This document shows positions 2,443 through 23,044 of a stretch of 51,476 bases of DNA, piece after piece. The DNA comes from Clostridia bacterium (lineage in GTDB: Bacteria > Bacillota > Clostridia > TANB77 > CAG-465), in assembly GCA_030524345.1 (NCBI GenBank), contig JAUNGP010000014.1:1-51476 (forward strand). Reading direction: 5' to 3'. Position numbers and translations under genes: made by a program. Below the pieces are notes generated by a model. The model was not told where the DNA came from. It was given only the letters and a program-made list of their open reading frames with translations, and made no database searches. Positions within the stretch are counted from its first letter, which is position 1, and each line of letters starts with the position of its first letter.

Positions 2443-3231
2443 ATGAAAAATAAAATTTATTTTTGTTTGATTTTCCTATTTTTCGCATTTGTAAATTTTT
2501 CTTTTTGTTATGCTTCGATTAATGTAGTAAATAGAAATGTAAATGATTTACAGGTGTGGAATACAATAGAGATAAATGATTCTGTAAAGGATTCAATCCT
2601 TACTACTCCTAAGGTGGATGAAACGCAAAAGATATATGATTTTGCGGACCTACTTAATGATACAGAGGAAAAAAGACTTTATGTAAAAATTAAAAATTTT
2701 ATTCAAAAATATGAGATAGATATGGTAGTTGTCACAATTAACTATAATCCAAAAATGAATCCTCAAAAATACGTGGATGATTTTTATCGTTATAACTATT
2801 TTGGAATGGGTGAAAATCATGATGGAATTATTTTACTCATAGATATGAATTATAGAACAGCGTGGATTTCGGTATATGGGGATACGCAAACAAGTTTTGA
2901 TAATACGAAATTAAGTAATATTTTAGAAGAGCTGAAGTTGTCATTAAAGAATAAAGATTATTATTCTACTGTATTAACATTTATTAATGATAGTGAGAAG
3001 TATGTTCAAAAAGAAATAATAAATTCTCAGAGTAATCAATTTGATTTTATGGGAATAATTGAGGTAATTGTTATTTCAACAATTGGAACGACATGTTTTA
3101 TTTTGATTGGATTAAGAACTCATAAAGATGTTAATATGGCTAAGTTAGCAAAGAAGTATCTAAAAGAACCCTCTTTGGATGTTACTTTTAGAAAAGATGA
3201 ATTAATGAGGAGTTCTACTACTAAATTTTAA
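2443..3231 (+). CDS. TPM-domain membrane protein without Gly/Ser tail (paralogue 2)
   Basis: 263 residues, clearly a duplicate of the preceding gene: the same signal peptide type, the same entry VDETQKIYDFADL, the same NYFGMGENHDGIILLIDM core and the same membrane helix (about 200-220). It stops at RSSTTKF, exactly where paralogue 1 continues into its Ser/Gly/His-rich tail, so the tail has been lost or never acquired. An ATG 93 nt upstream (2350) would add residues read from the end of gene 1 in another frame. The start at 2443 gives a proper signal peptide and has GGAG 8 nt upstream, so I use it. The difference in tails suggests the two copies may work as unequal partners, but that is inference. 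Confidence 0.8.
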   Translation: MKNKIYFCLIFLFFAFVNFSFCYASINVVNRNVNDLQVWNTIEINDSVKDSILTTPKVDETQKIYDFADLLNDTEEKRLYVKIKNFIQKYEIDMVVVTINYNPKMNPQKYVDDFYRYNYFGMGENHDGIILLIDMNYRTAWISVYGDTQTSFDNTKLSNILEELKLSLKNKDYYSTVLTFINDSEKYVQKEIINSQSNQFDFMGIIEVIVISTIGTTCFILIGLRTHKDVNMAKLAKKYLKEPSLDVTFRKDELMRSSTTKF

Positions 3232-3263
3232 ACAGATTTCAAATAATTTTAATATGTCTTTGA

Positions 3264-3299
3264 TAGGGTATTTTACTAAAAAAATACTCTATTTTTTTA
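3264..3299 (+). terminator. Rho-independent terminator of the zinc-ribbon/TPM operon
   Basis: AGGGTATTTT, 6-nt loop, AAAATACTCT (one G-U pair), then ATTTTTTT. Confidence 0.85.
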
Positions 3300-3329
3300 A
3301 ATAAATTTTAATAAAAATAACATAAAATG

Positions 3330-3358
3330 TTCACAAATGGCGAAATATATTGTATAAT
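3330..3358 (+). promoter_or_regulatory. Sigma-A-type promoter for the GH18 gene
   Basis: TTCACA (3330-3335), 17-bp spacer, TATAAT (3353-3358). It lies between the upstream terminator and the SD site of the glycosidase gene. Confidence 0.75.
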
Positions 3359-3385
3359 ATAATTTGATAAAGGCGGTTGATGTTA

Positions 3386-5047
3386 ATGTTTAACTATGTA
3401 AAAAGATGTATAGTACCCTTTATTTTTTTATTAATTGTATTAGTTGTATTTTATACTTTTAATATTTCAAAAAATAATGGTGAAAAGAAAGAAGCTGATT
3501 TAGTTATATATGGGGATAATATAGAAACAAATTATAAACCTTTTAAACAAGATGATGGAATATATATATCTGTTGATACAATATCAAAAGTAATAGATTC
3601 CAATATCTTTTATGATAAAGTTGCAACCAAAGTTATTATCACTACAAAAGATGATGTGGTAAAATTTAAAATTGATGAGAATTTAATGTCTAAAAATATG
3701 GAATATATCAGTATTAACACTAGTGCTAAACTTGTTAATGGACAACCATTTGTAGATGTTGAACTATTAAAAGATATATATAATATCAAAATAGAATATA
3801 ATGAAGAAACAAATACAATATCAATAGACAAAAAATCTTCTACTGATGTTCCAATTGCTTATGATAAAGTTAATGTTTATGCTGATATTTCTACAAAGTC
3901 AGAAGTTTTGCAAACCATTAATCGAAACAATACAGTTACTTTATATAATGAAAGTCTAAATCATAACCGATGGTATAAAGTAAAAACAGATTCCGGAGTA
4001 ATAGGATATATTGCCAAACTAAATATTGATGAATCATATGTAAAGGCTCAAGAGGAGAAACAAGAAAATGAGAAAAATGAAGAAGAAAACGTTTTAGTAG
4101 AAAATCAAGAGAAATTAATCATGTTTTGGCAATATGGAAGTGATTTGACAACACTTGGTGAAGAAAAGATAGATGGCGTGAATGTTGTATCACCAACTTG
4201 GTATGAACTAAAAAATCCAACTGGCGAAATTACTTCTAAGTTTAGTCAAGAATATTATAACAGGGCAAAAGAATATGGATATGAAATATGGCCTATTATA
4301 ACAAATGGGATTGATTCATCCTCTTATTCACCAGATGATACATCGCAAATGTTAAATAGTGAAAGAAATAGAGAAAACTTTATAAAGAATTTAGTAAGTA
4401 TTGCAAAAGATAATAAAATTGATGGAATCAATATAGATTTTGAAGCAATGAAGGATGATGATAGGGATTTATTTACACAATTTATTAGAGAACTTGCACC
4501 AATATTAAGAAAGAATCATATTAAACTTTCTGTAGATATGTATTTTGTAAAATACATTGACAGAACTAGAGTTGGAGAAGCAGCTGATTATGTGGTACTA
4601 ATGGGATATGATCAAAGAGGTGCTTGGTCTAGTGAAGCGGGTTCTATAGCCGAGGCTTCTTGGGTAGAAAAAAATATCAATTCTCTTATTAACGATTCTA
4701 AAATTTCTTCAAGTAAAATAATACTTGGAGTTCCATTCTATACAAGACTTTGGACAGAAAAGTCTGGAGATGATAATATCGGTACAAAGATATATACAAT
4801 GAAAGATTGTCAAAATTTCATAGAGAGAAATGAGATAACAACTATATGGGATGAAGATGCAGGTCAAAATTATGCAGAATATGTTTTAAATGATACTACA
4901 TATAAATTATGGATAGAAGATGCTGATTCTATCAAAAGGAGAACAGAAATTGTCAATAAATATAACCTTGTAGGTATAACTGGTTGGAGAAAAGGATTTG
5001 AAACAAATGATATTTGGCAAGTGATAAGAGATGAATTGAAAAAATAG
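3386..5047 (+). CDS. Membrane-anchored GH18 family glycoside hydrolase with SH3-like domain
   Basis: N-terminal signal anchor (about residues 8-24). Next comes a region resembling the copper amine oxidase N-terminal/stalk domain common in clostridial wall proteins (about 50-150), a bacterial SH3-like domain (about 155-215), a charged linker, and a GH18 (chitinase-like, YaaH/YdhD type) catalytic domain to the end. The GH18 signature DGINIDFE lies at about 346-353, with the final Glu as the expected acid catalyst, so the enzyme looks intact. Expected substrates are N-acetylglucosamine-containing polymers such as peptidoglycan or the spore cortex. ATG 3386 is preferred over TTG 3377/ATG 3380 because of its spacing from AAGGCGG. 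The next gene follows after 35 nt, perhaps co-transcribed. Confidence 0.88.
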   Translation: MFNYVKRCIVPFIFLLIVLVVFYTFNISKNNGEKKEADLVIYGDNIETNYKPFKQDDGIYISVDTISKVIDSNIFYDKVATKVIITTKDDVVKFKIDENLMSKNMEYISINTSAKLVNGQPFVDVELLKDIYNIKIEYNEETNTISIDKKSSTDVPIAYDKVNVYADISTKSEVLQTINRNNTVTLYNESLNHNRWYKVKTDSGVIGYIAKLNIDESYVKAQEEKQENEKNEEENVLVENQEKLIMFWQYGSDLTTLGEEKIDGVNVVSPTWYELKNPTGEITSKFSQEYYNRAKEYGYEIWPIITNGIDSSSYSPDDTSQMLNSERNRENFIKNLVSIAKDNKIDGINIDFEAMKDDDRDLFTQFIRELAPILRKNHIKLSVDMYFVKYIDRTRVGEAADYVVLMGYDQRGAWSSEAGSIAEASWVEKNINSLINDSKISSSKIILGVPFYTRLWTEKSGDDNIGTKIYTMKDCQNFIERNEITTIWDEDAGQNYAEYVLNDTTYKLWIEDADSIKRRTEIVNKYNLVGITGWRKGFETNDIWQVIRDELKK

Positions 5048-9954: not shown

Positions 9955-9977
9955 GAGAAAAAGAAGAGGTGGTATGT

Positions 9978-10892
9978 TTGTTAGAAAATGTGTTAAATAT
10001 TCTGCCAGACGATATATCAAGGGAGATAAGAAATATAAATTCATCTAGTGGAATTACTGAAATAAGGTTAAGAGTAGGAAAGAAAGGAATCATAGTACTT
10101 GCTGGTACAGAATTGCATTTGAGTAGAATTATCAAATTAGAAGATTTGCTTGAAATTCTTGTTAATATTTCTAAGAATTCTATATATGCGATACAAAATG
10201 AAATCAATAATGGTTTTGTTGTCATAAAAGGTGGACATAGAATTGGAGTATGTGGAGAAGTTGTCATGCAGGATGGAAATATTAAAAATATCAAAAATAT
10301 CAGTAGTATGAATATTAGGATTGCAAGGGAATTAATTGGATGCGCTGATAAAATTATGCCGTATATCATAAACGAAAATAGAATCAAAAACACACTGATT
10401 GTTTCACCCCCAGGATGTGGCAAAACAACAATTTTAAGAGATGCAGTAAGACAAATCAGCAATGGCGTAAGAGCTCTTGGATTTAACGGATGCAATGTTG
10501 GACTTGTTGACGAAAGAGGGGAGATTGCATCTGTATCTTATGGAATCAATAACTTAGATGTTGGAAACAGAACGGATATATTATCTAACATTCCAAAGAG
10601 CAAAGGAATGGAAATGCTTGTTAGAAGTATGGGAATCTCTGTTATTGCAACTGATGAAGTAGGCAGTGAAAGTGATGTTCAAGCAATTAAATATGCAAGT
10701 CTTAGTGGTGTCAATATGATATTTACGATGCATGGTAGTTCTTTTGCTGATATTTCAAGAAAGAATGGTATAAGAGAACTTATACAAGATGACTTATTTG
10801 ACAGAATTATTGTATTATCTAATAGAAAAGGACCAGGAACAATAGAAAGTATTCAAAATATAGCAGATTTTAAGAAGGAGGGAGTTGTGTGA
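9978..10892 (+). CDS. spoIIIAA: Stage III sporulation protein AA (SpoIIIAA ATPase)
   Basis: 304-residue cytoplasmic ATPase related to type II/IV secretion ATPases. It serves the SpoIIIA-SpoIIQ channel between mother cell and forespore. The Walker A variant SPPGCGKTTILRD lies at about 142-154 and DEVG is in the Walker B region, followed by the Asp/His-rich end typical of the family. The start is TTG 9978: AGGTGG at 9967-9972 lies 5 nt upstream, and a GTG at 9969 would lie inside the SD itself. It is first of eight tightly packed genes and overlaps spoIIIAB by 4 nt. Expression is expected from mother-cell sigma factor E, but I see no clear SigE promoter. Confidence 0.95.
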   Translation: MLENVLNILPDDISREIRNINSSSGITEIRLRVGKKGIIVLAGTELHLSRIIKLEDLLEILVNISKNSIYAIQNEINNGFVVIKGGHRIGVCGEVVMQDGNIKNIKNISSMNIRIARELIGCADKIMPYIINENRIKNTLIVSPPGCGKTTILRDAVRQISNGVRALGFNGCNVGLVDERGEIASVSYGINNLDVGNRTDILSNIPKSKGMEMLVRSMGISVIATDEVGSESDVQAIKYASLSGVNMIFTMHGSSFADISRKNGIRELIQDDLFDRIIVLSNRKGPGTIESIQNIADFKKEGVV

Positions 10893-11410
10893 ATATCGTT
10901 TTTAAAATCGTCATATCTTGTGGGATTATAGCACTTTGTGGATATGCTGGTATTATGAAATCCAAGAAACTGGAAACAAGGGAACAGATTTTAAGAGAAA
11001 TGGTTATTTTTTTAAACTTAGTAAAAAATGATATTAGATATATGATGAATATACTCCCTAATGCATATGAAATTGCAAGACAGAAGTTAAGTACAAGTTT
11101 AAAAATTGCAATTGGTAAGATTGTAATTGATATGATCAATTATAGTAATCATGCAATACTTGAGCAAAGTATTATGAAAAATATATCGGATATAGATGAG
11201 CTTACAAAGTATGACAAAGAAGTATTTATCTCTACTCTTAAAAATCTTGGTAGAAGTGATTTAGAGTCACAGATTAATATTATCGACAACAGTATTCATA
11301 TCATAGAGAATCAGATTAAAGAGGCAAATGAAATAAAATTAAAAAACTCCAAACTTTATAGAACAGTTGGTGTGATAACAGGTCTTATGATCGTTATTGT
11401 ATTTATATAA
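10889..11410 (+). CDS. spoIIIAB: Stage III sporulation protein AB
   Basis: 173 residues: an N-terminal membrane helix (about 3-20), a helical GspF-like body with LETREQILREMVIFLNLVKNDIRY, and a C-terminal hydrophobic segment (TVGVITGLMIVIVFI). This matches SpoIIIAB, the GspF/PilC-like partner of SpoIIIAA. GTG start at 10889 with AAGGAGGG upstream; the start overlaps the spoIIIAA stop (GTGA), so translation is probably coupled. Confidence 0.93.
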   Translation: MNIVFKIVISCGIIALCGYAGIMKSKKLETREQILREMVIFLNLVKNDIRYMMNILPNAYEIARQKLSTSLKIAIGKIVIDMINYSNHAILEQSIMKNISDIDELTKYDKEVFISTLKNLGRSDLESQINIIDNSIHIIENQIKEANEIKLKNSKLYRTVGVITGLMIVIVFI

Positions 11411-11423
11411 TGGAGGTGGTAGT

Positions 11424-11618
11424 GTGGATATAGATTTACTATTTAAAATAGCAGGTATAGGCATTTTGGTTGCTGTTTTAAGTCAAGTCTTAAGTAAAGC
11501 AGGTCGAGAAGATCAGGCTATGATGACTACCCTGACAGGACTTATTATTGTTCTTATGTTAGTAATAACCCAGATTAGTAATTTATTTGAGACAGTAAGA
11601 ACGGTGTTTAAATTGTAG
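11424..11618 (+). CDS. spoIIIAC: Stage III sporulation protein AC
   Basis: 64 residues, two membrane helices joined by the short conserved loop SKAGREDQ. Length and sequence are typical of SpoIIIAC, one of the small membrane subunits of the feeding-tube channel. I use GTG 11424 (GGAGGTGG 4 nt upstream), which removes an unlikely nine-residue extension from the open frame. Confidence 0.93.
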   Translation: MDIDLLFKIAGIGILVAVLSQVLSKAGREDQAMMTTLTGLIIVLMLVITQISNLFETVRTVFKL

Positions 11619-11627
11619 GTGAAGTAT

Positions 11628-12011
11628 ATGGAAGTATTTAAAATCGTAGGATTTGCTATTATAGCAACGGTTCTTATCATAGTTGTAAAAGATCAAAGAC
11701 CAGAAATAGCTATTTTACTTACTTCTGTTTCTGTCATTGCGATTATGATGTATGCTATTTCTAAATTATCCGGAGTGATAGAAATGTTAGATACGCTTAT
11801 CAATTCTTCTGGAATGAATAAGGAGTTTTTAACAATTATATTAAAAGTGACAGGGATAGCGTATATAGTAGAATTTGGAAAGAATGTATGTGCAGATGCT
11901 GGACAAACGGCAATTGCTACAAAACTTGAAATGGCTGGAAAGGTAATTATTGTTACACTATCTTTGCCACTTATCAATGCTCTCCTTACTGTGGTGTCAG
12001 AGTTGATATGA
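11628..12011 (+). CDS. spoIIIAD: Stage III sporulation protein AD
   Basis: 127 residues with four membrane segments; the characteristic VKDQRPEIAILLTSVSVI loop and GMNKEFLTIILKVTGIAYI are present. Start ATG 11628 has TAGGTGA 5 nt upstream; the in-frame GTG 11619 overlaps the SD and is rejected. The stop overlaps the spoIIIAE start. Confidence 0.93.
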   Translation: MEVFKIVGFAIIATVLIIVVKDQRPEIAILLTSVSVIAIMMYAISKLSGVIEMLDTLINSSGMNKEFLTIILKVTGIAYIVEFGKNVCADAGQTAIATKLEMAGKVIIVTLSLPLINALLTVVSELI

Positions 12012-13174
12012 AAATAATGAAATGGTGTAAAAAAGTAGCAGCAATATTCATTATCTTTTGCTTTTCATTAGAGAGCATGATGGCAGAAGAATCGATAGAA
12101 AATGATATAAAAGCAAATGTGGGTGAGAACTTTGGAATAGATAGCTATATCGGTACAATTAGCGAATATGTAGAGGCAAGTGGAGATTACAATATTGATC
12201 TTTCCGATATTGCAAAAGATTTAGTTTCTACGGATGGATTTGATTATAAGGGAATTATTATCAAGATTATGTCAGTTTTTTCAAAGGAAATTTTGAGTAC
12301 TATTAAAAGTTCTAGTAGTATATTTATTATAATTATTATCATGGCTCTTTTATCATCTCTTGATTTAGAAGAAAATGGTGATATTACAAAGATTGCAAAA
12401 CTCATTTGTTTTATTGCTATAGCTACTATAACAGTTATGAATTTTATAGATGTCATGAATATGTTTAAAAATGTAGTTTCTACCCTTACAACCATTATGC
12501 AAGTAGTATCTCCATTTTTAATGTCTATATTGATAGCAACAGGACAGGTTACTACTACTGGTATTATACAACCATTATTATTATTTATTTCAAGTTTTAT
12601 AGGCTTTTTGGTAAATTACGTTGCATTTCCATTTTTTACAATATCGGTTGCCTTTAACATTATCAGTAGTATATCAGAGAATATCAAATTTGATAAAATG
12701 TCAAAATTATTTAGTAGTAGTGCAATATGGGTTATTGGCGTAATGCTTACAATTTTTCTTTCTGTTCTATCGCTGGAAGGTTCCATCTCTTCATCGGTTG
12801 ATTCACTTGCTGTAAAAACTACTCAAACCGCAGTATCAAATTTTGTACCAGTAGTGGGAAAGTTTTTCTCAGATAGTTTTGAAACGGTTGTGGGAGCAAC
12901 TAAAATCATTGGAAAAGTGGGAGGAAGTATTGGAATCATTGCCACTATCATAGTAGCAATGGTGCCGATATTAAAAATACTTAGTATCATGATTACCTAT
13001 TATGTTCTTGTTGCACTGATTGAACCAATATGTAATGATGTAGCAGTGTCAAAATATTTGAATGGGTTTGCAACTCTTTATAAAAATTTACTTGGTATTT
13101 TAATAGGAATCGTCATTCTTTTTGTGATATCTACTGGAATAACGTTAAACTTGGTATCAGCACTTGTTAAGTGA
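12008..13174 (+). CDS. spoIIIAE: Stage III sporulation protein AE
   Basis: 388-residue polytopic membrane protein with an N-terminal signal peptide (KVAAIFIIFCFSLESMMA), a polar extracytoplasmic stretch, then about seven membrane helices. The family patterns SSVDSLAVKTTQTAVSNFVP and VGKFFSDSFETVVGA identify SpoIIIAE, the largest membrane subunit of the channel. The ATG overlaps the upstream stop (ATGA) and has only a weak SD, so translational coupling is likely. Confidence 0.94.
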   Translation: MKIMKWCKKVAAIFIIFCFSLESMMAEESIENDIKANVGENFGIDSYIGTISEYVEASGDYNIDLSDIAKDLVSTDGFDYKGIIIKIMSVFSKEILSTIKSSSSIFIIIIIMALLSSLDLEENGDITKIAKLICFIAIATITVMNFIDVMNMFKNVVSTLTTIMQVVSPFLMSILIATGQVTTTGIIQPLLLFISSFIGFLVNYVAFPFFTISVAFNIISSISENIKFDKMSKLFSSSAIWVIGVMLTIFLSVLSLEGSISSSVDSLAVKTTQTAVSNFVPVVGKFFSDSFETVVGATKIIGKVGGSIGIIATIIVAMVPILKILSIMITYYVLVALIEPICNDVAVSKYLNGFATLYKNLLGILIGIVILFVISTGITLNLVSALVK

Positions 13175-13183
13175 GGTGAAAAT

Positions 13184-13702
13184 ATGATTGAAGGATTTAA
13201 GGTTTGGATTAATTCTATGTTATGTATTGGTATTTTTGTTTTGTTTATAAAACTCGTTATACCAAATAATCATTTAAAAAAATATATATATTCAATGATA
13301 GGCATTATAACAATTATTACTGTTATATCTCCAGTAATGAACTTTTTTGAAAATGATACCATGGAGTCTAGTTTAAATCAAGTGATAAGCGATATATCAT
13401 CAAATGAGATGGCAATTAGCGTAGATAATTCTAATATTAATAAATATCAAGATTTAAATAATCAGGCAGTAAAGCAGGGATTTATAGATAAACTAAGCGA
13501 TGATATCAAATCTAAACTAGAAAATAAAGGAGTAAGTATTAAAGATGTTGAAGTAAATTTAGATAATGAATATGGAATTGAGAAAATAAAAATAGCAGTT
13601 AAGAAATATAGTCAAAATTGTCCAGATTCTGGTAGTGTCATAACTTTTGTGAAAAACGAATATGATATAGATTCTAGTAAAGTGGAAGTAAGAGGTGAAT
13701 AA
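13184..13702 (+). CDS. spoIIIAF: Stage III sporulation protein AF
   Basis: 172 residues: two N-terminal membrane helices (about 8-26 and 35-52) and a C-terminal soluble domain with the ring-building KIAVKKY-type strand. GAGGTGAAAAT precedes the ATG. It sits between spoIIIAE and spoIIIAG as in other spore-formers. Confidence 0.92.
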   Translation: MIEGFKVWINSMLCIGIFVLFIKLVIPNNHLKKYIYSMIGIITIITVISPVMNFFENDTMESSLNQVISDISSNEMAISVDNSNINKYQDLNNQAVKQGFIDKLSDDIKSKLENKGVSIKDVEVNLDNEYGIEKIKIAVKKYSQNCPDSGSVITFVKNEYDIDSSKVEVRGE

Positions 13703-13703
13703 T

Positions 13704-14249
13704 GTGAATTATTTAGAAACTTTGAAAAATATAGCAAAAGATAAAAAGAAGAGAACAGAAAATATTGTTTTCTTAATTATTTTACTTGTTATATTATTAA
13801 TAGCCATAAATTACATATTTACAGATAAAAGTGATAATAATAGTAATATAGATACAAGCAGTACGAATATAAATAAAATAGAAGACAATGGACAAATAAG
13901 TGATAGTATGGAGAAAAAGCTAGAAGTGATTTTATCCCAGATTTCAGGAATAAGTGATGTGTCAATTGTACTTACCTATTCAAACAATTCAAAGCAAAAC
14001 GTTGTATATAATACGAAAGAAGAAGTAACAGAAAATGAGAAAAGTGTTGAAAAGAATGTTGCATATAATGAAGAAAATGGAAAGAAAAGTGCAATTGTTG
14101 AAAGTGTTGAATTGCCTAAAGTTGAAGGCGCAATTGTTGTAGCAAGAGGCGCAAGTAGTGTAGATATTCGCTCAAAAATTGCAAATGCAATAGCAAATGT
14201 ATTAGATATACCTGTATATAAGGTGCAAGTATTTGAAAAAAATAGTTAA
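13704..14249 (+). CDS. spoIIIAG: Stage III sporulation protein AG
   Basis: 181 residues: a basic N-terminus, one membrane helix (about 24-40), an Asn/Asp/Ser-rich linker, then the extracytoplasmic ring domain (KLEVILSQISGISDVSIVL; PKVEGAIVVARGASSVDIR) that forms the large SpoIIIAG ring in B. subtilis. GTG 13704 is chosen because AGGTGA lies 5 nt upstream; the open frame begins at GTG 13695 inside that SD. Confidence 0.93.
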   Translation: MNYLETLKNIAKDKKKRTENIVFLIILLVILLIAINYIFTDKSDNNSNIDTSSTNINKIEDNGQISDSMEKKLEVILSQISGISDVSIVLTYSNNSKQNVVYNTKEEVTENEKSVEKNVAYNEENGKKSAIVESVELPKVEGAIVVARGASSVDIRSKIANAIANVLDIPVYKVQVFEKNS

Positions 14250-14262
14250 GAGGTGAAAAAAT

Positions 14263-14826
14263 ATGAATTTAGCAAAGAGAAGCATGTTAGCGCTTATATC
14301 ATTTGTATTTATGCTTACAATTGTTGGATACATTAACTATAAATATGATCCAGAAAGAGAAAAAGATTTAGGTCAAACCGTTTATGTAAGTTCTCAAGAT
14401 GATAATGAATATGATGTGAGCATTTATTCGGAAGAGGATAAAATAAGAAATTTGTCTAGTACGGGTGAAGAAGATAGCATTGCAGTATTTAAATATGATA
14501 GAGATAATATGTTTTCGGAATTGATAGAAACGTATAATAATATTATTAATAATGGAAATACAAGTGCAGATAACATCAATTCCTATCAAGAAAAATTAAA
14601 TGCACTGATAGAAAAAAAGACGCTAATTAATATGGTTGAAAATGTGATAAAATCTAAAGGAATTGAGGATATCGTTATTATTCCAACAAATAATGACAAT
14701 TTGAATGTGGTAGTAAAATCTGATGTAGAACTTGAAGCTGATATGATAGCTAAGATTCAACAGATAATAGTAGATCAATTAGGAGTAGATGCAAGCAAAC
14801 TTAGTATTACAAGAAGCGAAAAATAG
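14263..14826 (+). CDS. spoIIIAH: Stage III sporulation protein AH
   Basis: 187 residues: one N-terminal membrane helix (about 8-24) and an extracytoplasmic domain with a coiled region and the YscJ/FliF-like C-terminal fold (IIIPTNNDNLNVVVKSD, QLGVDASKLSI). It contacts SpoIIQ across the intermembrane space and is the last gene of the operon, followed by a strong terminator. No spoIIQ gene is in this window. Confidence 0.93.
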   Translation: MNLAKRSMLALISFVFMLTIVGYINYKYDPEREKDLGQTVYVSSQDDNEYDVSIYSEEDKIRNLSSTGEEDSIAVFKYDRDNMFSELIETYNNIINNGNTSADNINSYQEKLNALIEKKTLINMVENVIKSKGIEDIVIIPTNNDNLNVVVKSDVELEADMIAKIQQIIVDQLGVDASKLSITRSEK

Positions 14827-14916: not shown

Positions 14917-14945
14917 TTGAAAAAGAGCCTAATTTATGATATATT
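14917..14945 (+). promoter_or_regulatory. Candidate promoter of the pilus locus
   Basis: TTGAAA (14917-14922), 17 bp, TATATT (14940-14945). A second TATAAT just downstream has no -35 at the right distance. The leader to the first gene is about 60 nt. Confidence 0.55.
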
Positions 14946-15013
14946 ATAATCACATTAAAATGCATAATTCTATGGAAATGAGTGCATTGTACATAAGAGA
15001 AAAGAGGATAGAT

Positions 15014-16549
15014 ATGACAGAATGCTTAGGAATATATTTTGAAAATAATATAATAAAATATGCTAAGTTAAAGAGTAATAATCAATCTATTGAGCTTCAA
15101 GAACATGGCATAAGATTTATAAAGCTAAATAAAGATGTTGTAATATTAGACATTATAGAAGAAACGAATTCTCATAATATTCCAGTAGTGATAAACTCAA
15201 GTGATAATACTTATATTAATTTTCAGATTATAGAAAATAGCTCTAAAAAGTCATATACAAAACAAATATTAAATACTGAATTTGAGGCTTGGTGTGAAAA
15301 AAATGCAAAGTCTCCAGAAAAATTTGAGTTCTCATATGTTATTTCTAAACCTAAGGATAAGACATATAAATGTAATGGGATTTTAGATATCGTTTCAAAA
15401 AAATCTTTAGATGAGATATCTAAGAATGGGTTATATAAAGTATCCGGGATATATCCAGCAAATATTTTAATGCATCATATAGTTGATGAAAAAAGTTTAA
15501 ATTATATTTTACTGAATATCAATAGTGACATCATTGCAACAGCTGTTTTAGATGGAAAAATAGTTGAGATGAAAAATTTGGGTACCGGTATTAATGCAAT
15601 TATTGAAAAATTTAAAGATCGTCTTGGATCATATCAGAAAGCATATGAGGCATGTAGAAAAATTAATGTTTATACAGAAAGTAATGAAGATTCAAATGAT
15701 AAAGAACTTGAAAGTATTGCAGAGCCAATACTTCAAGAAGTAGTCAAAAATATTTCTACATTTGTAACGAAGTATAAAGTAAATATGGATAAAATATATC
15801 TTACTGGACTCATTAATTTATTTGGAAATTTAGATATATTATTAAAGGAGTACTTTGATCTTAAATGTGAAATATTAGTTCCAAAGATGATTAAAAAAGA
15901 AGAAAAAGATATTACAGGAGTAATAGAGGTTTCACCAGCAATTGCAATTGCTTATGAACATATGGTAAATAAAGATCCTAAAAATTTTTTATTGAAAGAA
16001 AGTAGAAAAATTTCATGGAATATGTTTGGAGAGATGAATCATAAAAATATAGATTCTTTAAAGATAGCGTTAGGACTGGTAACTATACTTTTTGTTACAT
16101 ATATTTCATTTGGAGCAATATATTCTAGTAGAGTCAATAGAATTGTTTCAGATGCAAATAATAATATTTTGGAAATTAATTCTAGTATTACTAAGATAAC
16201 AGAGGATATTGCATATGTGTCCGAAAATAAAGAGAAATATGAAAAGATTAATACACAGGTAGATGATGTATTAAAAGCTCTTTCAGATGAAAGTAATCGT
16301 AATGGCGCATATAATGTAGCCACCTTTTTACAAAATATTATTAGGATTATTCCAGAAGATGTAAGACTGATATCAATTAGTTCTGATGATAATAAAAATG
16401 TTAAAATGATTGCTGAATCTGATAGTTATGCAAGTCTTGGTTATTTTGTTTCAGAACTAAAGCTTGAGGGGACTTTAAAAAATATTACAATAACTGATGT
16501 TCAAAATGGTGAAATAACTACTATTGAGATTGGTGGTGAGCTACCATGA
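15014..16549 (+). CDS. PilM-PilN fusion protein of a type IV pilus system
   Basis: 511 residues. The N-terminal part (about 1-330) is an actin-like PilM/FtsA-fold domain (LGIYFENNIIKYAKLK start, GTGINAIIEKF, YLTGLINLFGNL, VSPAIAIAYEHM). It is followed in the same chain by a membrane helix (about 351-372), a coiled coil and a PilN-type periplasmic domain (PEDVRLISISSDDNKNVKM). PilM and PilN normally form a cytoplasmic/inner-membrane pair, here covalently joined. Start ATG 15014 has GAGG 6 nt upstream; the open frame's earlier ATGs lack an SD. It overlaps the PilO-like gene by 4 nt. Confidence 0.82.
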   Translation: MTECLGIYFENNIIKYAKLKSNNQSIELQEHGIRFIKLNKDVVILDIIEETNSHNIPVVINSSDNTYINFQIIENSSKKSYTKQILNTEFEAWCEKNAKSPEKFEFSYVISKPKDKTYKCNGILDIVSKKSLDEISKNGLYKVSGIYPANILMHHIVDEKSLNYILLNINSDIIATAVLDGKIVEMKNLGTGINAIIEKFKDRLGSYQKAYEACRKINVYTESNEDSNDKELESIAEPILQEVVKNISTFVTKYKVNMDKIYLTGLINLFGNLDILLKEYFDLKCEILVPKMIKKEEKDITGVIEVSPAIAIAYEHMVNKDPKNFLLKESRKISWNMFGEMNHKNIDSLKIALGLVTILFVTYISFGAIYSSRVNRIVSDANNNILEINSSITKITEDIAYVSENKEKYEKINTQVDDVLKALSDESNRNGAYNVATFLQNIIRIIPEDVRLISISSDDNKNVKMIAESDSYASLGYFVSELKLEGTLKNITITDVQNGEITTIEIGGELP

Positions 16550-18046: not shown

Positions 18047-18493
18047 ATGAATTCAAAAAGAGGTGTTTCATTAATCGTTCTTGCTATAACTGTAATTGTT
18101 ATGATAATACTTGCCTCAGCAGTAGTTTTGACTTTAAAGGATAGTGCTGATATGATAGGAAATGCTAAAACTGCTGTTAATGAGAGTGATAAAGAACCTA
18201 TTCAGGTAGCAATCAATGCTCTTATTACCAAAATGATGATGAATGTCAAAGAGCCTGTCTCTTTTGTGACTGGCGGTACTATTGAAGATGGTAAATTGAC
18301 ATTTTGTGTAACTGGAGATGAAACAAAGCTTATCACAAAGAAAAAGGTAAATGGCTTTGAACAATTTGCAATAGCAGAAGAAGGTGATACTCCATATACA
18401 TTATCAGCAGAGGATTTAGGAATATCAGCTGAAAGATTAAAAGATTTTAGCGTGGATAAAAATGGAGTTGTGTCTATCATAACTGGAGAATAA
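18047..18493 (+). CDS. Type IV pilin-like protein lacking Glu+5
   Basis: 148 residues. The short basic leader MNSKRG would be cut after Gly6 to give VSLIVLAITVIVMIILASAV, the hydrophobic N-terminal helix of a pilin. The usual Glu at position +5 is Val. The soluble head is small (TFCVTGDETKLITKKKVNG). This type, beginning roughly like G-I/V-S/T-L-I/V-A-L-V-I-T, is widespread in gut Clostridia and usually annotated as a type II secretion/pilin protein. A stable hairpin follows the gene, and the leader and SD (AAAGGAGG) are strong, as expected for the most abundant subunit. Confidence 0.78.
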   Translation: MNSKRGVSLIVLAITVIVMIILASAVVLTLKDSADMIGNAKTAVNESDKEPIQVAINALITKMMMNVKEPVSFVTGGTIEDGKLTFCVTGDETKLITKKKVNGFEQFAIAEEGDTPYTLSAEDLGISAERLKDFSVDKNGVVSIITGE

Positions 18494-18602: not shown

Positions 18603-19373
18603 ATGATAATTGCTTTAAATATATTTGTTGGAATCTGTATATTTATCATAGGTGCTTTATTTGGAAGCTTTTTTTCGCTTGCATTTCATAGAATTCCTAA
18701 GCATGAAGACATCGTTATAAAAAATTCATATTGTCCCAAATGTTTGCATAAACTTTCTTTCTTTGATCTAATTCCTATCATTAGTTTTTTGTCAAGAGGA
18801 GGAAAGTGTAAATATTGTAAAGAAAAGATTAGTATAAAGTATTTATTATTAGAACTTTTAAATGGCACTGTCTTTTTATTTTTGTATATTCTTTTAGGAT
18901 ACAATTTAAGACTACTTGTTGTCATTCTAATATACGTAATTCTATTTTTTATCATTGGGACGATCATATCAAATCACCATGTCTCAAGAATTAAGAGAAA
19001 TCATGGTGTCTTCTTAACAGAGTTGATTGTGGCAATTATTCTTTTTTCGATGATACTGACATCTATGTATATAGTAGTAAGAAACAATATAAATAAAAAT
19101 ATTATTACAGTAGCAAGAGCTAATGCTTTAGATATAGCCATAAAAAATATTGAAATCTCGAAACTTACAGATTATGATAAGCTAGAATCTTTTACTACCA
19201 GTGAAATGGTAGATAATGTAGTATATAATGTGAATGTTAAGGTATCTAAATTATCCGATGAGGATCGTAGTAAGCAAGACATTGTAAAAAAAATAACTGT
19301 AGTGATTAGTTACAATGTGGATGGAAAGGACTACGATCTTAGTATTAATACTGTAAAAGGAAAGGTGTTGTAA
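18603..19373 (+). CDS. Fusion: N-terminal prepilin peptidase domain joined to a minor pilin
   Basis: 256 residues. Residues 1-125 match the N-terminal half of PilD/GspO: IGALFGSFFSLAFHRIP, zinc cysteines C44/C47/C69/C72, LIPIISFLSRGGKC and ISIKYLLLELLNG. Where the first catalytic Asp of the A24 peptidase domain should lie, the sequence reads TIISNHHVSRI, and the GxGD half is absent. At residue 130 the chain becomes a prepilin: basic leader KRNHG, then VFLTELIVAIILF with Glu at +5, followed by a minor-pilin head. The fusion should therefore lack protease activity. Either it is a deletion product or a novel domain use. It is continuous in frame with no stop; the SD AAAGGAGGGAG is strong. Confidence 0.8.
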   Translation: MIIALNIFVGICIFIIGALFGSFFSLAFHRIPKHEDIVIKNSYCPKCLHKLSFFDLIPIISFLSRGGKCKYCKEKISIKYLLLELLNGTVFLFLYILLGYNLRLLVVILIYVILFFIIGTIISNHHVSRIKRNHGVFLTELIVAIILFSMILTSMYIVVRNNINKNIITVARANALDIAIKNIEISKLTDYDKLESFTTSEMVDNVVYNVNVKVSKLSDEDRSKQDIVKKITVVISYNVDGKDYDLSINTVKGKVL

Positions 19374-19375
19374 TT

Positions 19376-19825
19376 ATGAATAAAAGAGGAATTACAATGA
19401 CTTCTATTGTGATATATGTAGTATTATTTTTTATTTTTACTTCCATTGCAATTGGAATAAGTAGTAATATGAATTATGAATCCTTAAGTGAAAAAGGAAA
19501 TATTATTAATCATGAAGAATTTCAAAAGCTTCAGTATAATATGCTAAATAGTGCTAAGAAAAGTAATGAAGTATATAATATAAATGGAAAGATTGTGTTT
19601 TCTAATAATGATGAATATGATTACAACGAAGAAGATAAGACGATTTTAAAAAATGATCATGTATTGATACAAAATGTTGAAAATTTTAGTATACTACCTT
19701 CAAATGATCTAGTAGAAATCAAAGATCCGAATAAGGGAGTGGCTATTGAAGTAACATTAAAAAAATATGGAAGCTCTAAAAGTGAGAAGATGATATTTTC
19801 GGTAGGTGATAATGTTGAATCATAA
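19376..19825 (+). CDS. Minor pilin-like protein
   Basis: 149 residues: short leader MNKRG, then ITMTSIVIYVVLFFIFTSIAIGI as pilin helix, with Ser rather than Glu at +5, and a PulJ/PilW-like small head (NFSILPSNDLVEI; KGVAIEVTLKKYG). It starts 2 nt after the fusion gene; the SD is AAAGGTG within the end of that gene. Probably a low-abundance component that helps start or cap the pilus. Confidence 0.72.
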   Translation: MNKRGITMTSIVIYVVLFFIFTSIAIGISSNMNYESLSEKGNIINHEEFQKLQYNMLNSAKKSNEVYNINGKIVFSNNDEYDYNEEDKTILKNDHVLIQNVENFSILPSNDLVEIKDPNKGVAIEVTLKKYGSSKSEKMIFSVGDNVES

Positions 19826-20033: not shown

Positions 20034-20059
20034 ACAAATGAAAAAGAGGAGTGTTAAAT

Positions 20060-21697
20060 ATGTTTGAAAATGTAAAGGCCAGAAAAAATCCGATTGGTGC
20101 CGAATTTTTAAAAAGAGGACTTCTTACAGAAGCTCAAATAGATAAAGTACTTAGCTATCAAAAAGAACATAAGGAGTTAAAATTTGGTGAAATTGTAGAT
20201 ATATTGGATATGTGTGATAAACATGAATTATTAGATACACTTGCATATAAAATTCAAGTAACACCAGTTATGTTAGAAGAAAAGCTTCCAATTAATCCAG
20301 TGAAATACTTACCAAGAGATATTATTATCAACTATAAAGTAATTCCTTTTGAACTTGAGGGAACTACTCTAAAGGTTGCTTTTGCAGATCCTCTTGATAG
20401 TAGTAAGGTAAAGGAAATAGAACTTCTTTTGATCAATCAAGGGTATACGATGGAAATATATATAACTCTATATACTTCTATTATGAGACAAATCGAAAGT
20501 ATCAAAACTGTTGCAACAAAGTTTGTTGATAGTGAAGAAAAAGATGTATCAAAACTAATGGATAATATCATCATGACTGCAATAGAAAAAAGGGCATCAG
20601 ATATACATGTGGAGCCTATGGAAGATAAAGTAAGAATTCGATTTAGAATTGATGGACAGCTTATTACTATTACAGAACTTCCAAAATTTAGACAAAGTAT
20701 TATTACAGGAAGAATTAAATCGATATCCAATATGCACCAGGAAATTACGACAGATCAAGATGGAAGTATCAATACATATGAAAATTATAGTATCCGTGTT
20801 TCTAGTCAAAAAAATGTGAATGGCGAAAAATTTGTATTAAGATTATTAAAGAAAAATGTAGAAGCAAAGACATTATTTGAATTAGGCTTTCCAAATGATA
20901 AAGACCTTGTAGAAAAAGCCTTTAATAAGAAAAATAGTATGGTGCTTGTTTGTGCTCCAACAGGAGGAGGTAAAACAACTACTCTATATAGTGTTTTAGA
21001 ATATTTAGATAGACCAGAGATCAATATCATATCAATTGAAAATCCAGTAGAGCGCAGAATACCGGGCATTAATCAAGTAGAAATTGGACCAAATTCTAAA
21101 TTTGATACTGCACTTAGAACAGTTGTAAGACAAGATCCAGATATTATTTTAGTAGGAGAGATAAGAGATGAAGATACCGCTAAAATTGCTATAGAGGCTG
21201 GACAAACTGGACATTTAGTTCTTAGTACTATTCATACAATTGATGCAGTAGAAGCTATTACAAGACTTAGAAAAATGGGAATATCAGATTATGATGTATC
21301 AGCAACTCTAATTACTTCTATATCTCAAAGATTAGTAAGACGTCTTTGTAATAACTGTAAAAAGGTCCATGAGTTTACAGAAGAAGAACTAAAGTATATA
21401 GAGAAAGTTTCAAGGCTTACAGGAATCAAATTTGATATCAAATCTCAAATGATATATGAGGCAGTTGGGTGTCCTATATGTAATCATACAGGTTATTTTG
21501 ATAGGATAGCATTATTTGAAGTATTATGTTTGGATGAATATTTAAAGGATATGATAAGTGAGGGTAAGTCAAGTATAGATATACGTAAATATGCAATAGA
21601 AAATACAGATTATAAACCACTGGTTGTGGATGGAATCCGTAAAGTACTTAATGGCATAACAACGATAGATGAACTAAAAAGAAATATCCCAATTTAG
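20060..21697 (+). CDS. pilB: Type IV pilus / type II secretion assembly ATPase PilB
   Basis: 545 residues. The N-terminal GspE/MshE-type domain (about 1-150) precedes the secretion ATPase core, with Walker A APTGGGKTTTLYS (about 300-312), Asp box and Walker B ILVGEIRDEDTA, His box GHLVLSTIHT. The tetracysteine zinc site CNNC (about 430) and CPIC (about 471) is typical of extension ATPases. It supplies energy for pilus assembly. No retraction ATPase (PilT) is in this window. Start ATG 20060 has AGAGGAG 8 nt upstream. pilC follows after 15 nt. Confidence 0.92.
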   Translation: MFENVKARKNPIGAEFLKRGLLTEAQIDKVLSYQKEHKELKFGEIVDILDMCDKHELLDTLAYKIQVTPVMLEEKLPINPVKYLPRDIIINYKVIPFELEGTTLKVAFADPLDSSKVKEIELLLINQGYTMEIYITLYTSIMRQIESIKTVATKFVDSEEKDVSKLMDNIIMTAIEKRASDIHVEPMEDKVRIRFRIDGQLITITELPKFRQSIITGRIKSISNMHQEITTDQDGSINTYENYSIRVSSQKNVNGEKFVLRLLKKNVEAKTLFELGFPNDKDLVEKAFNKKNSMVLVCAPTGGGKTTTLYSVLEYLDRPEINIISIENPVERRIPGINQVEIGPNSKFDTALRTVVRQDPDIILVGEIRDEDTAKIAIEAGQTGHLVLSTIHTIDAVEAITRLRKMGISDYDVSATLITSISQRLVRRLCNNCKKVHEFTEEELKYIEKVSRLTGIKFDIKSQMIYEAVGCPICNHTGYFDRIALFEVLCLDEYLKDMISEGKSSIDIRKYAIENTDYKPLVVDGIRKVLNGITTIDELKRNIPI

Positions 21698-21712
21698 TAA
21701 GGAGGTGTATGT

Positions 21713-23044
21713 GTGCCAAGTTATAAATATAAAGCTATGTCACAGGATGGTAGTGTTAGTATTGGTAGAATACTTGCAATGGACAAAAATAGTGCAATCG
21801 ATAGCTTAAAAAAAGATAATTTACAACCAATAACAATCCAAAAGATAAGCGAGAAAAAAAGAGCATATAAAAAAGTAAACTATAAAAGGCTTGACAGAGA
21901 AAAAAAGAAACAAAAGCAACGTACACCGAAAAGAAGATTAAAAGATATGAGTTTTACTGAAATTCTTACAATGGATGTAAATCTTTCAAAAAAGGTCACA
22001 TCAAAAGACATTTTAGTATTTGCAAATGACTTTTATATATTGAAAAAAGCAGGTTTTAATAATATAGATGCGCTTCAAACTGTGTGTGATGGAATAGAAA
22101 ATACTTACTTTAAAGAAATATTAGAGGATATATTATTGAAAGTAAAAAATGGCGAAAAACTGTATGCATCTATGGAACTATATTCGGATATATTCCCAGA
22201 AATGTTTATCAATTTTGTAAAGGTTGGTGAAGAGACAGGAACACTTGATACTGCTCTATCTTATGCAAGAGAATATGTAGAAAAATCTGATAATTTAAGA
22301 AAAACAATTATTAGTACAGTTGTACCAAGAGTATTACAGTTTTTATTTATTATGATAGCTATGTTTGTAGCTTTGATTATAGGAGTTCCATTACTTCAAA
22401 AAGTGTATGATATGTTTGAATCTAGCCAGCAAATTCCTAAAGCTACATTAATAGCGTTAGATTGTGCCAACTTTTTAATGAAGTATTGGTATATTATTTT
22501 ATTATGTTTTGCTTTAATATGTGTTGCATGGCTATGTTATATACGAACTCCAAAAGGAAGATATTTTAAAGATAGATTAGTTTTAAAACTTCCCATTATA
22601 GGAAGGTTAAATACGAATATCTTAGTCAGTAGATTTTTTCAAGCAATGTTACTGAATTTGAAGAATGGAATGAGAATTCAAGAAAGTTTAGAGATTGCAA
22701 GAAATGTTAGTAAAAATTATTATTTCGCATCCGTTGTAGAAGTCAGTAAGACAAGTATTGCAAATGGTGAATCATGGTATAAGCCATTTGAGGAAAAAGG
22801 AATCTTTAATAAAATGATGACTCAAATGATAGATGTTGGCATGAAGTCAGATCTTTCAGAAATGATGGATAAAGTAAATGAATATATTAATATAGAAATT
22901 GAGGAATCTTTAAAGAAATTTACAAAGGCATTGCCAGAAATAACATATCTTTTTGTTGGAATAGCACTTGTAGTCTTTACAATTGTTGTTTTAGTTCCAC
23001 TAATTAATATGTATATGGGTGGTTTTATTGAAATGCCAAGTTAA
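21713..23044 (+). CDS. pilC: Type IV pilus inner-membrane platform protein PilC
   Basis: 443 residues with two GspF repeats (about 95-220 and 300-430), each containing a helical bundle and membrane helices. Family patterns FINFVKVGEETGTLDTAL and FFQAMLLNLKNGMRIQESL are present. The N-terminal segment has the usual YKYKAMSQDG start followed by an unusually basic stretch (about 45-80). GTG start with AAGGAGGTG 5 nt upstream. It is the assembly platform that PilB drives. Confidence 0.92.
   Translation: MPSYKYKAMSQDGSVSIGRILAMDKNSAIDSLKKDNLQPITIQKISEKKRAYKKVNYKRLDREKKKQKQRTPKRRLKDMSFTEILTMDVNLSKKVTSKDILVFANDFYILKKAGFNNIDALQTVCDGIENTYFKEILEDILLKVKNGEKLYASMELYSDIFPEMFINFVKVGEETGTLDTALSYAREYVEKSDNLRKTIISTVVPRVLQFLFIMIAMFVALIIGVPLLQKVYDMFESSQQIPKATLIALDCANFLMKYWYIILLCFALICVAWLCYIRTPKGRYFKDRLVLKLPIIGRLNTNILVSRFFQAMLLNLKNGMRIQESLEIARNVSKNYYFASVVEVSKTSIANGESWYKPFEEKGIFNKMMTQMIDVGMKSDLSEMMDKVNEYINIEIEESLKKFTKALPEITYLFVGIALVVFTIVVLVPLINMYMGGFIEMPS

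Follow-up and report, generated by a model that had tools for sequence, protein, structure and literature searches.

In-frame fusion of a PilD N-domain with a minor pilin, and an unlinked protease-only PilD paralogue, in a family of clostridia

How does a type IV pilus (T4P) operon have its pilins processed when its prepilin peptidase gene lacks the protease half and continues in frame as a pilin? This question is raised by a locus of a Clostridia bacterium (GTDB lineage Clostridia; TANB77; CAG-465), which we analysed within a window comprising positions 1 to 51,476 of the forward strand of contig JAUNGP010000014.1 (assembly GCA_030524345.1). The features of the gene under study are as follows.

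18603-19373, + strand: fusion ORF of 256 aa, PilD N-domain (methylase/zinc domain, three transmembrane (TM) helices) plus GspI-type minor pilin
18645-18890, + strand: A24_N_bact domain (PF06750), residues 15-96, E 3.6e-28
18732-18818, + strand: zinc loop C44xxC47...G67-K68-C69xxC72, read from the sequence; residues linked to N-methylation in P. aeruginosa PilD (PMC3584216)
18906-18989, + strand: TM3 helix, residues 102-129, the expected place of the first catalytic Asp segment of PilD, with the Asp absent (model and alignment)
18975-19007, + strand: linker and internal class III leader, ending at Gly135, with predicted cleavage after Gly135; Gly-1 and Glu+5 each present in 18/18 fusions
19008-19370, + strand: mature minor pilin part, residues 136-256, with a predicted GspI/XcpV/EpsI-like fold (model and fold match); homologous to the gene behind pilD in related families

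A sequence-only reading had described this gene as a PilD N-domain joined in frame to a minor pilin, and the intact frame (256 codons, 0 internal stops), the PF06750 match, the class III leader and the predicted pilin fold all bear this out. It had also held that the A24 protease half is gone; in agreement, the protein gave no match to the Peptidase_A24 domain (PF01478), and GxGD was absent from the ORF. The residues of a PilD-type N-methyltransferase are in place, with Cys44, Cys47, Cys69 and Cys72 (CxxC-x21-CxxC) and Gly67-Lys68 preceding the third Cys. Those of a prepilin peptidase (the D...IPD and GxGD aspartates within an A24 domain) are missing, the position of the first Asp being held by another residue. 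Because the catalytic residues are lacking, the fusion is a variant of a known enzyme family and not a prepilin peptidase proper. The leader reads KRNHG/VFLTE, the slash marking the predicted cut, and continues as VFLTELIVAIILF, with Gly135 at -1, Val136 at +1 and Glu140 at +5. Gly-1, Glu+5, a hydrophobic helix and a pilin head are features of a type IV prepilin; the fusion departs from one in that a short hydrophilic leader is not its sole pre-cut sequence, since the cut comes after a stretch of 135 residues that includes three TM helices and is leader-like only in its final ~10 residues.

The AlphaFold2 model of the fusion (mean pLDDT 79, from a shallow alignment of 10) placed TM helices at residues 2-30, 78-98 and 102-129, a pilin helix of 55 residues at 134-188 and a four-stranded sheet at 197-253. 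Structure comparison, covering mainly residues 162-256 of this predicted model, matched the pilin half to the minor pseudopilins EpsI, GspI and XcpV (Z = 10.5, 10.1, 10.0 and 9.7; best 2ret_A, 10.5). A sequence search against solved structures returned a relative neither for the fusion nor for the unlinked A24 protein described below, and an NCBIfam search gave 0 matches over the cut-off. Compared with PilD/GspO enzymes such as P. aeruginosa PilD, the fusion shares the A24_N domain, the four-Cys zinc motif, the Gly-basic pair before Cys3, TM1 to TM3 and the position in a T4P operon, but it lacks both catalytic aspartates along with the entire peptidase half and has a pilin in their place. With the core minor pseudopilins GspI/XcpV/EpsI it shares the predicted fold (residues 162-256) and the Gly-1/Glu+5 leader; its pilin, however, is preceded by a three-TM enzyme domain, theirs by a short hydrophilic leader.

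The fusion gene lies within a pilus operon, immediately upstream of which is a spoIIIA-like sporulation operon (9969-14826). Its other annotated members are the following.

14936-16549, + strand: PilM/PilN-like protein; weak PilN match (PF05137, E 0.005, under the cut-off)
18047-18493, + strand: separate pilin-like gene with leader MNSKRG/VSLIV (sequence), which also needs a peptidase in trans
19376-19825, + strand: second minor pilin-like gene with leader MNKRG/ITMTS (sequence); found at the same spot behind the fusion in relatives
20051-21697, + strand: PilB assembly ATPase (MshEN + T2SSE; domain match)
21713-23044, + strand: PilC platform protein (T2SSF, two stretches; domain match)

PilB is the single T2SSE ATPase of this genome, and PilC follows it directly (20051-23044), at a place where most relatives carry a PilT-like gene; that gene is also absent in two other genomes (G024 and G033). 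PilT seems to have been lost here, and pilus retraction by PilT may be absent. Within the genus, the fusion or its split form (see below) was present in 11/11 genomes with full-length PilB and in 0/17 without (p = 5e-8), a perfect co-occurrence that ties the N-domain gene to the pilus and is silent on its chemistry. Pilus-less genomes of the same genus (G002, G003, G004, G005, G006, G009, G011, G014, G016, G020, G025 and G026) contain an orphan ORF of ~190 aa homologous to PilB residues 10-170 (the MshEN region, with no ATPase domain), possibly a repurposed regulatory domain.

A six-frame search of 36 genomes of the window's family recovered the protein in 19 genomes from five genera. Eighteen of these are single frames spanning both parts; the same architecture in 18 separate genomes rules out an assembly deletion. 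The nineteenth, G010, has two overlapping ORFs (ATGA), its pilin being encoded separately and carrying a normal leader. A tree of the N-domain, based on few columns, placed G010 among the fusions (SH-aLRT 86), so that a secondary split is the simpler reading, and the fusion may have a single origin. As the halves exist there as two ORFs, they can presumably work apart. Over the 18 fusions, identity averaged 64% in the N-domain against 36% for the linker and 34% for the part of the pilin that follows its first helix; Gly-1 and Glu+5 were invariant. dN/dS for six pairs, rough values given that dS was near or above 1 in most pairs, ranged from 0.02 to 0.11 in the N-domain and from 0.12 to 0.32 in the pilin, pointing to purifying selection on the fusion. 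The joint is flanked by similar 14-nt sequences (AAATCACCATGTCT and AAATCATGGTGTCT; 11/14 identical), from which a deletion between short repeats had been proposed. This origin was not upheld: an equally good repeat pair occurred in 18.7% of random 81-nt stretches of the contig, no better than chance, and the fusion is common to the whole family and older than the species.

The locus was expected to need another peptidase, and a search of the genome located a candidate. The only other A24 protein is encoded, unlinked to the pilus operon, at G000:C17:90062-90811 (249 aa), overlapping yqeG. It carries SIDYKFQIIPDE and GMGFGDVKLM, and hence both aspartates, and lacks the zinc loop. In an HHalign profile comparison, the trans A24 proteins aligned with bifunctional PilD over its whole length from TM1 onwards, apart from the zinc loop, which they lack (E 3.7e-18); the trans A24 has an N-terminal TM helix of its own that corresponds to the one in PilD. 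Prepilin peptidases without a methylase domain have been described, among them TadV/CpaA, FppA and archaeal PibD/FlaK-type enzymes; the unlinked partner is likewise a protease without a four-Cys loop, but it is PilD-like, in that TM1 and the sequence on either side of the missing loop can still be aligned.

Comparable A24 genes were found in nearly all relatives; among those examined, the aspartate motifs were present in nearly all full-length copies and the four-Cys loop in none. The departures were three weak matches of 340 aa without aspartate motifs, which by sequence look like unrelated paralogues, and two copies off the IPD/IPN form of motif 1. In one genome of a related family (G051, family f5), the operon PilD has both aspartates and the trans copy is apparently broken by stops. 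No A24 gene turned up, even with a closer query, in five pilus-bearing genomes: G008, G024 and G027 belong to the family, G037 and G046 to the wider order. Since the neighbouring yqeG is missing from the same five, a shared assembly gap is the probable cause; it could also be a real loss. Within the genus, 15/17 pilus-less genomes retained the trans A24 gene. This persistence weakens the idea of a protease dedicated to this pilus; surviving pilus loss, it would have other substrates. The yqeG-adjacent protease-only A24 of pilus-less genomes of genus g1 has both aspartate motifs intact.

How the two halves came apart is visible in the other families of the order, whose T4P operons carry a full-length PilD with a separate minor pilin gene directly behind it. 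When these loci (families f3, f4 and f5) were searched with a profile built from the fused pilins, the gene right behind pilD was the best match in 51/58 (E to 1e-17). Relatives with an uninterrupted PilD and a separate pilin had been named as evidence against the fusion. Such relatives do exist at the level of the order, where they document the ancestral gene order; they leave the fusion itself standing, because most of these PilDs are proteolytically dead. The four Cys and the basic residue before Cys3 are present in all 78 complete A24_N ORFs of the order, from five families, and Gly before Cys3 in 75 (the remaining three have Ala). GxGD, by comparison, is kept in 8/78, exclusively in f5, where 8/10 PilDs have both aspartates. 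In f3, the first Asp is present in 34/35 full-length copies and an Asp at the second (GxGD) position in 0, and in f4 both aspartates are lost. In these two families, 38/38 full-length copies thus have a dead protease half that lacks the second catalytic Asp.

Truncation accompanies this loss. Several operon PilDs of f3 and one of f5 are shortened, some of them right where the first Asp segment lies, and there a leftover ORF of the second half follows. In four f3 genomes, PilD stops at that segment (ICRN followed by a stop codon) and the dead second half forms a separate ORF behind it (L149, 6001-6829; L170, L173, L174, L177). Family f2 has the N-domain as an independent protein of ~130 aa. The window's fusion has the same N-domain as the degenerate PilDs of f3 and f4, with a homologous pilin directly behind; their two genes, however, are unfused, and they retain the dead peptidase half, whole or partly truncated. 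Elsewhere in the class, the A24 half directly follows the N-domain in 67/73 cases. Among the exceptions inspected, two loci of family f40 (L219, L220) have a PilD with the zinc loop kept and the GxGD aspartate lost (NYGPVKLAM). Also among these exceptions, and outside the order, G476 (L218) encodes a 136-aa A24_N protein (431-838) and a 223-aa A24 protein (3146-3814, with GGAD for GxGD) in one T4P operon, a split of PilD independent of that in the window's order.

One copy thus lacks the protease and the other the zinc loop. Having lost complementary parts, the two copies appear to descend from a PilD that complementary degeneration divided into one protein with the methylase half only and another with the protease half only. 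We favour, as somewhat better than an even case, the reading that the fusion is a two-part precursor, made of the zinc/methylase half of PilD and a GspI-type minor pilin and cut by the unlinked protease-only paralogue. Its first two steps are read directly from architecture, conservation, complementary loss and gene adjacency. The operon PilD of the order lost its protease half, the second copy having the protease and lacking the zinc loop; in the window's family, the second half of the operon PilD is absent altogether, and what remains is joined to the next gene, the minor pilin. We infer the further steps, namely cleavage, methylation and action of the freed domain on other pilins. The trans protease would cut the internal leader after Gly135 on the cytoplasmic side, as TM3 is predicted to end and the leader to begin on the face where prepilin leaders are cut (PMC10191384). 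The freed GspI-type minor pilin would enter tip assembly, and the remaining stand-alone three-TM methylase would N-methylate the fused pilin and other pilins. The first 135 residues (zinc/methylase half and linker) would accordingly be kept for N-methylating pilins, or because N-methylation needs them.

The methylase function in this reading is argued by analogy with work on P. aeruginosa PilD. In that enzyme, N-methylation depends on zinc and the four Cys, whereas cleavage does not; the Gly and basic residue beside the third Cys also matter for methylation (PMC3584216). The assignment of the N-domain as the methylase has itself been described as very likely rather than proven (PMC4471445). 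We hold it evenly balanced whether the four-Cys PilD domain alone is a complete pilin N-methyltransferase, such that the order would have divided PilD in two and the family would make methylase and pilin substrate together, to be released by another enzyme.

The most serious alternative, which we nevertheless consider unlikely, is that the N-domain acts not as a methylase alone but as a docking or specificity subunit, rejoining the trans A24 protein as a bifunctional peptidase so that the pilin is cut after docking. The two proteins are indeed complementary, with the zinc loop in one and the two Asps in the other, and G476 has both halves as separate genes of one T4P operon. The trans A24 protein, however, has its own PilD-like N-terminal TM helix and persists in pilus-less genomes without the N-domain, which suggests that it can stand alone; moreover, zinc is unnecessary for cleavage by PilD (PMC3584216).

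A clearly less probable alternative leaves the leader uncut, the GspI-type pilin being tied to its membrane domain as a permanent initiator or anchor of the pilus. GspI-class pilins do begin tip assembly in type II secretion, and the fusion has been kept over five genera; yet the invariance of Gly-1 and Glu+5 (18/18) is the mark of a cut pilin, and in the sister genome G010 the pilin comes from a gene of its own and has a normal leader. An assembly artefact or a decaying pseudogene, raised in the sequence-only reading and usually signalled by in-frame domain loss of this kind, can be practically dismissed in view of the shared architecture in 18 genomes of five genera, the low dN/dS and the intact ORF.

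Returning to the two-part precursor, bacterial prepilin peptidases are described as one- or two-domain proteins in which one domain is always the peptidase (PMC4471445). A stand-alone PilD methylase domain, i.e. a methylase without protease, was found neither in the open-access literature, most subscription journals lying outside this scope, nor in two reviews (PMC10191384, PMC4471445), according to which the purpose of pilin methylation is still mysterious after 40 years. In the clostridia studied here, dozens of species whose protease half is dead or lost have kept the methylase half with its zinc residues intact, which argues that methylation, or another job of the domain, is worth keeping independently of cleavage. 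Such natural single-function proteins offer direct tests of the methylase role of the N-domain and of the purpose of methylation. Cutting and methylation, until now always studied jointly, thus appear to be separated in nature in these uncultured clostridia, and if the N-domain is a stand-alone methylase, conservation of the split would mean that selection acts on pilin methylation in its own right.
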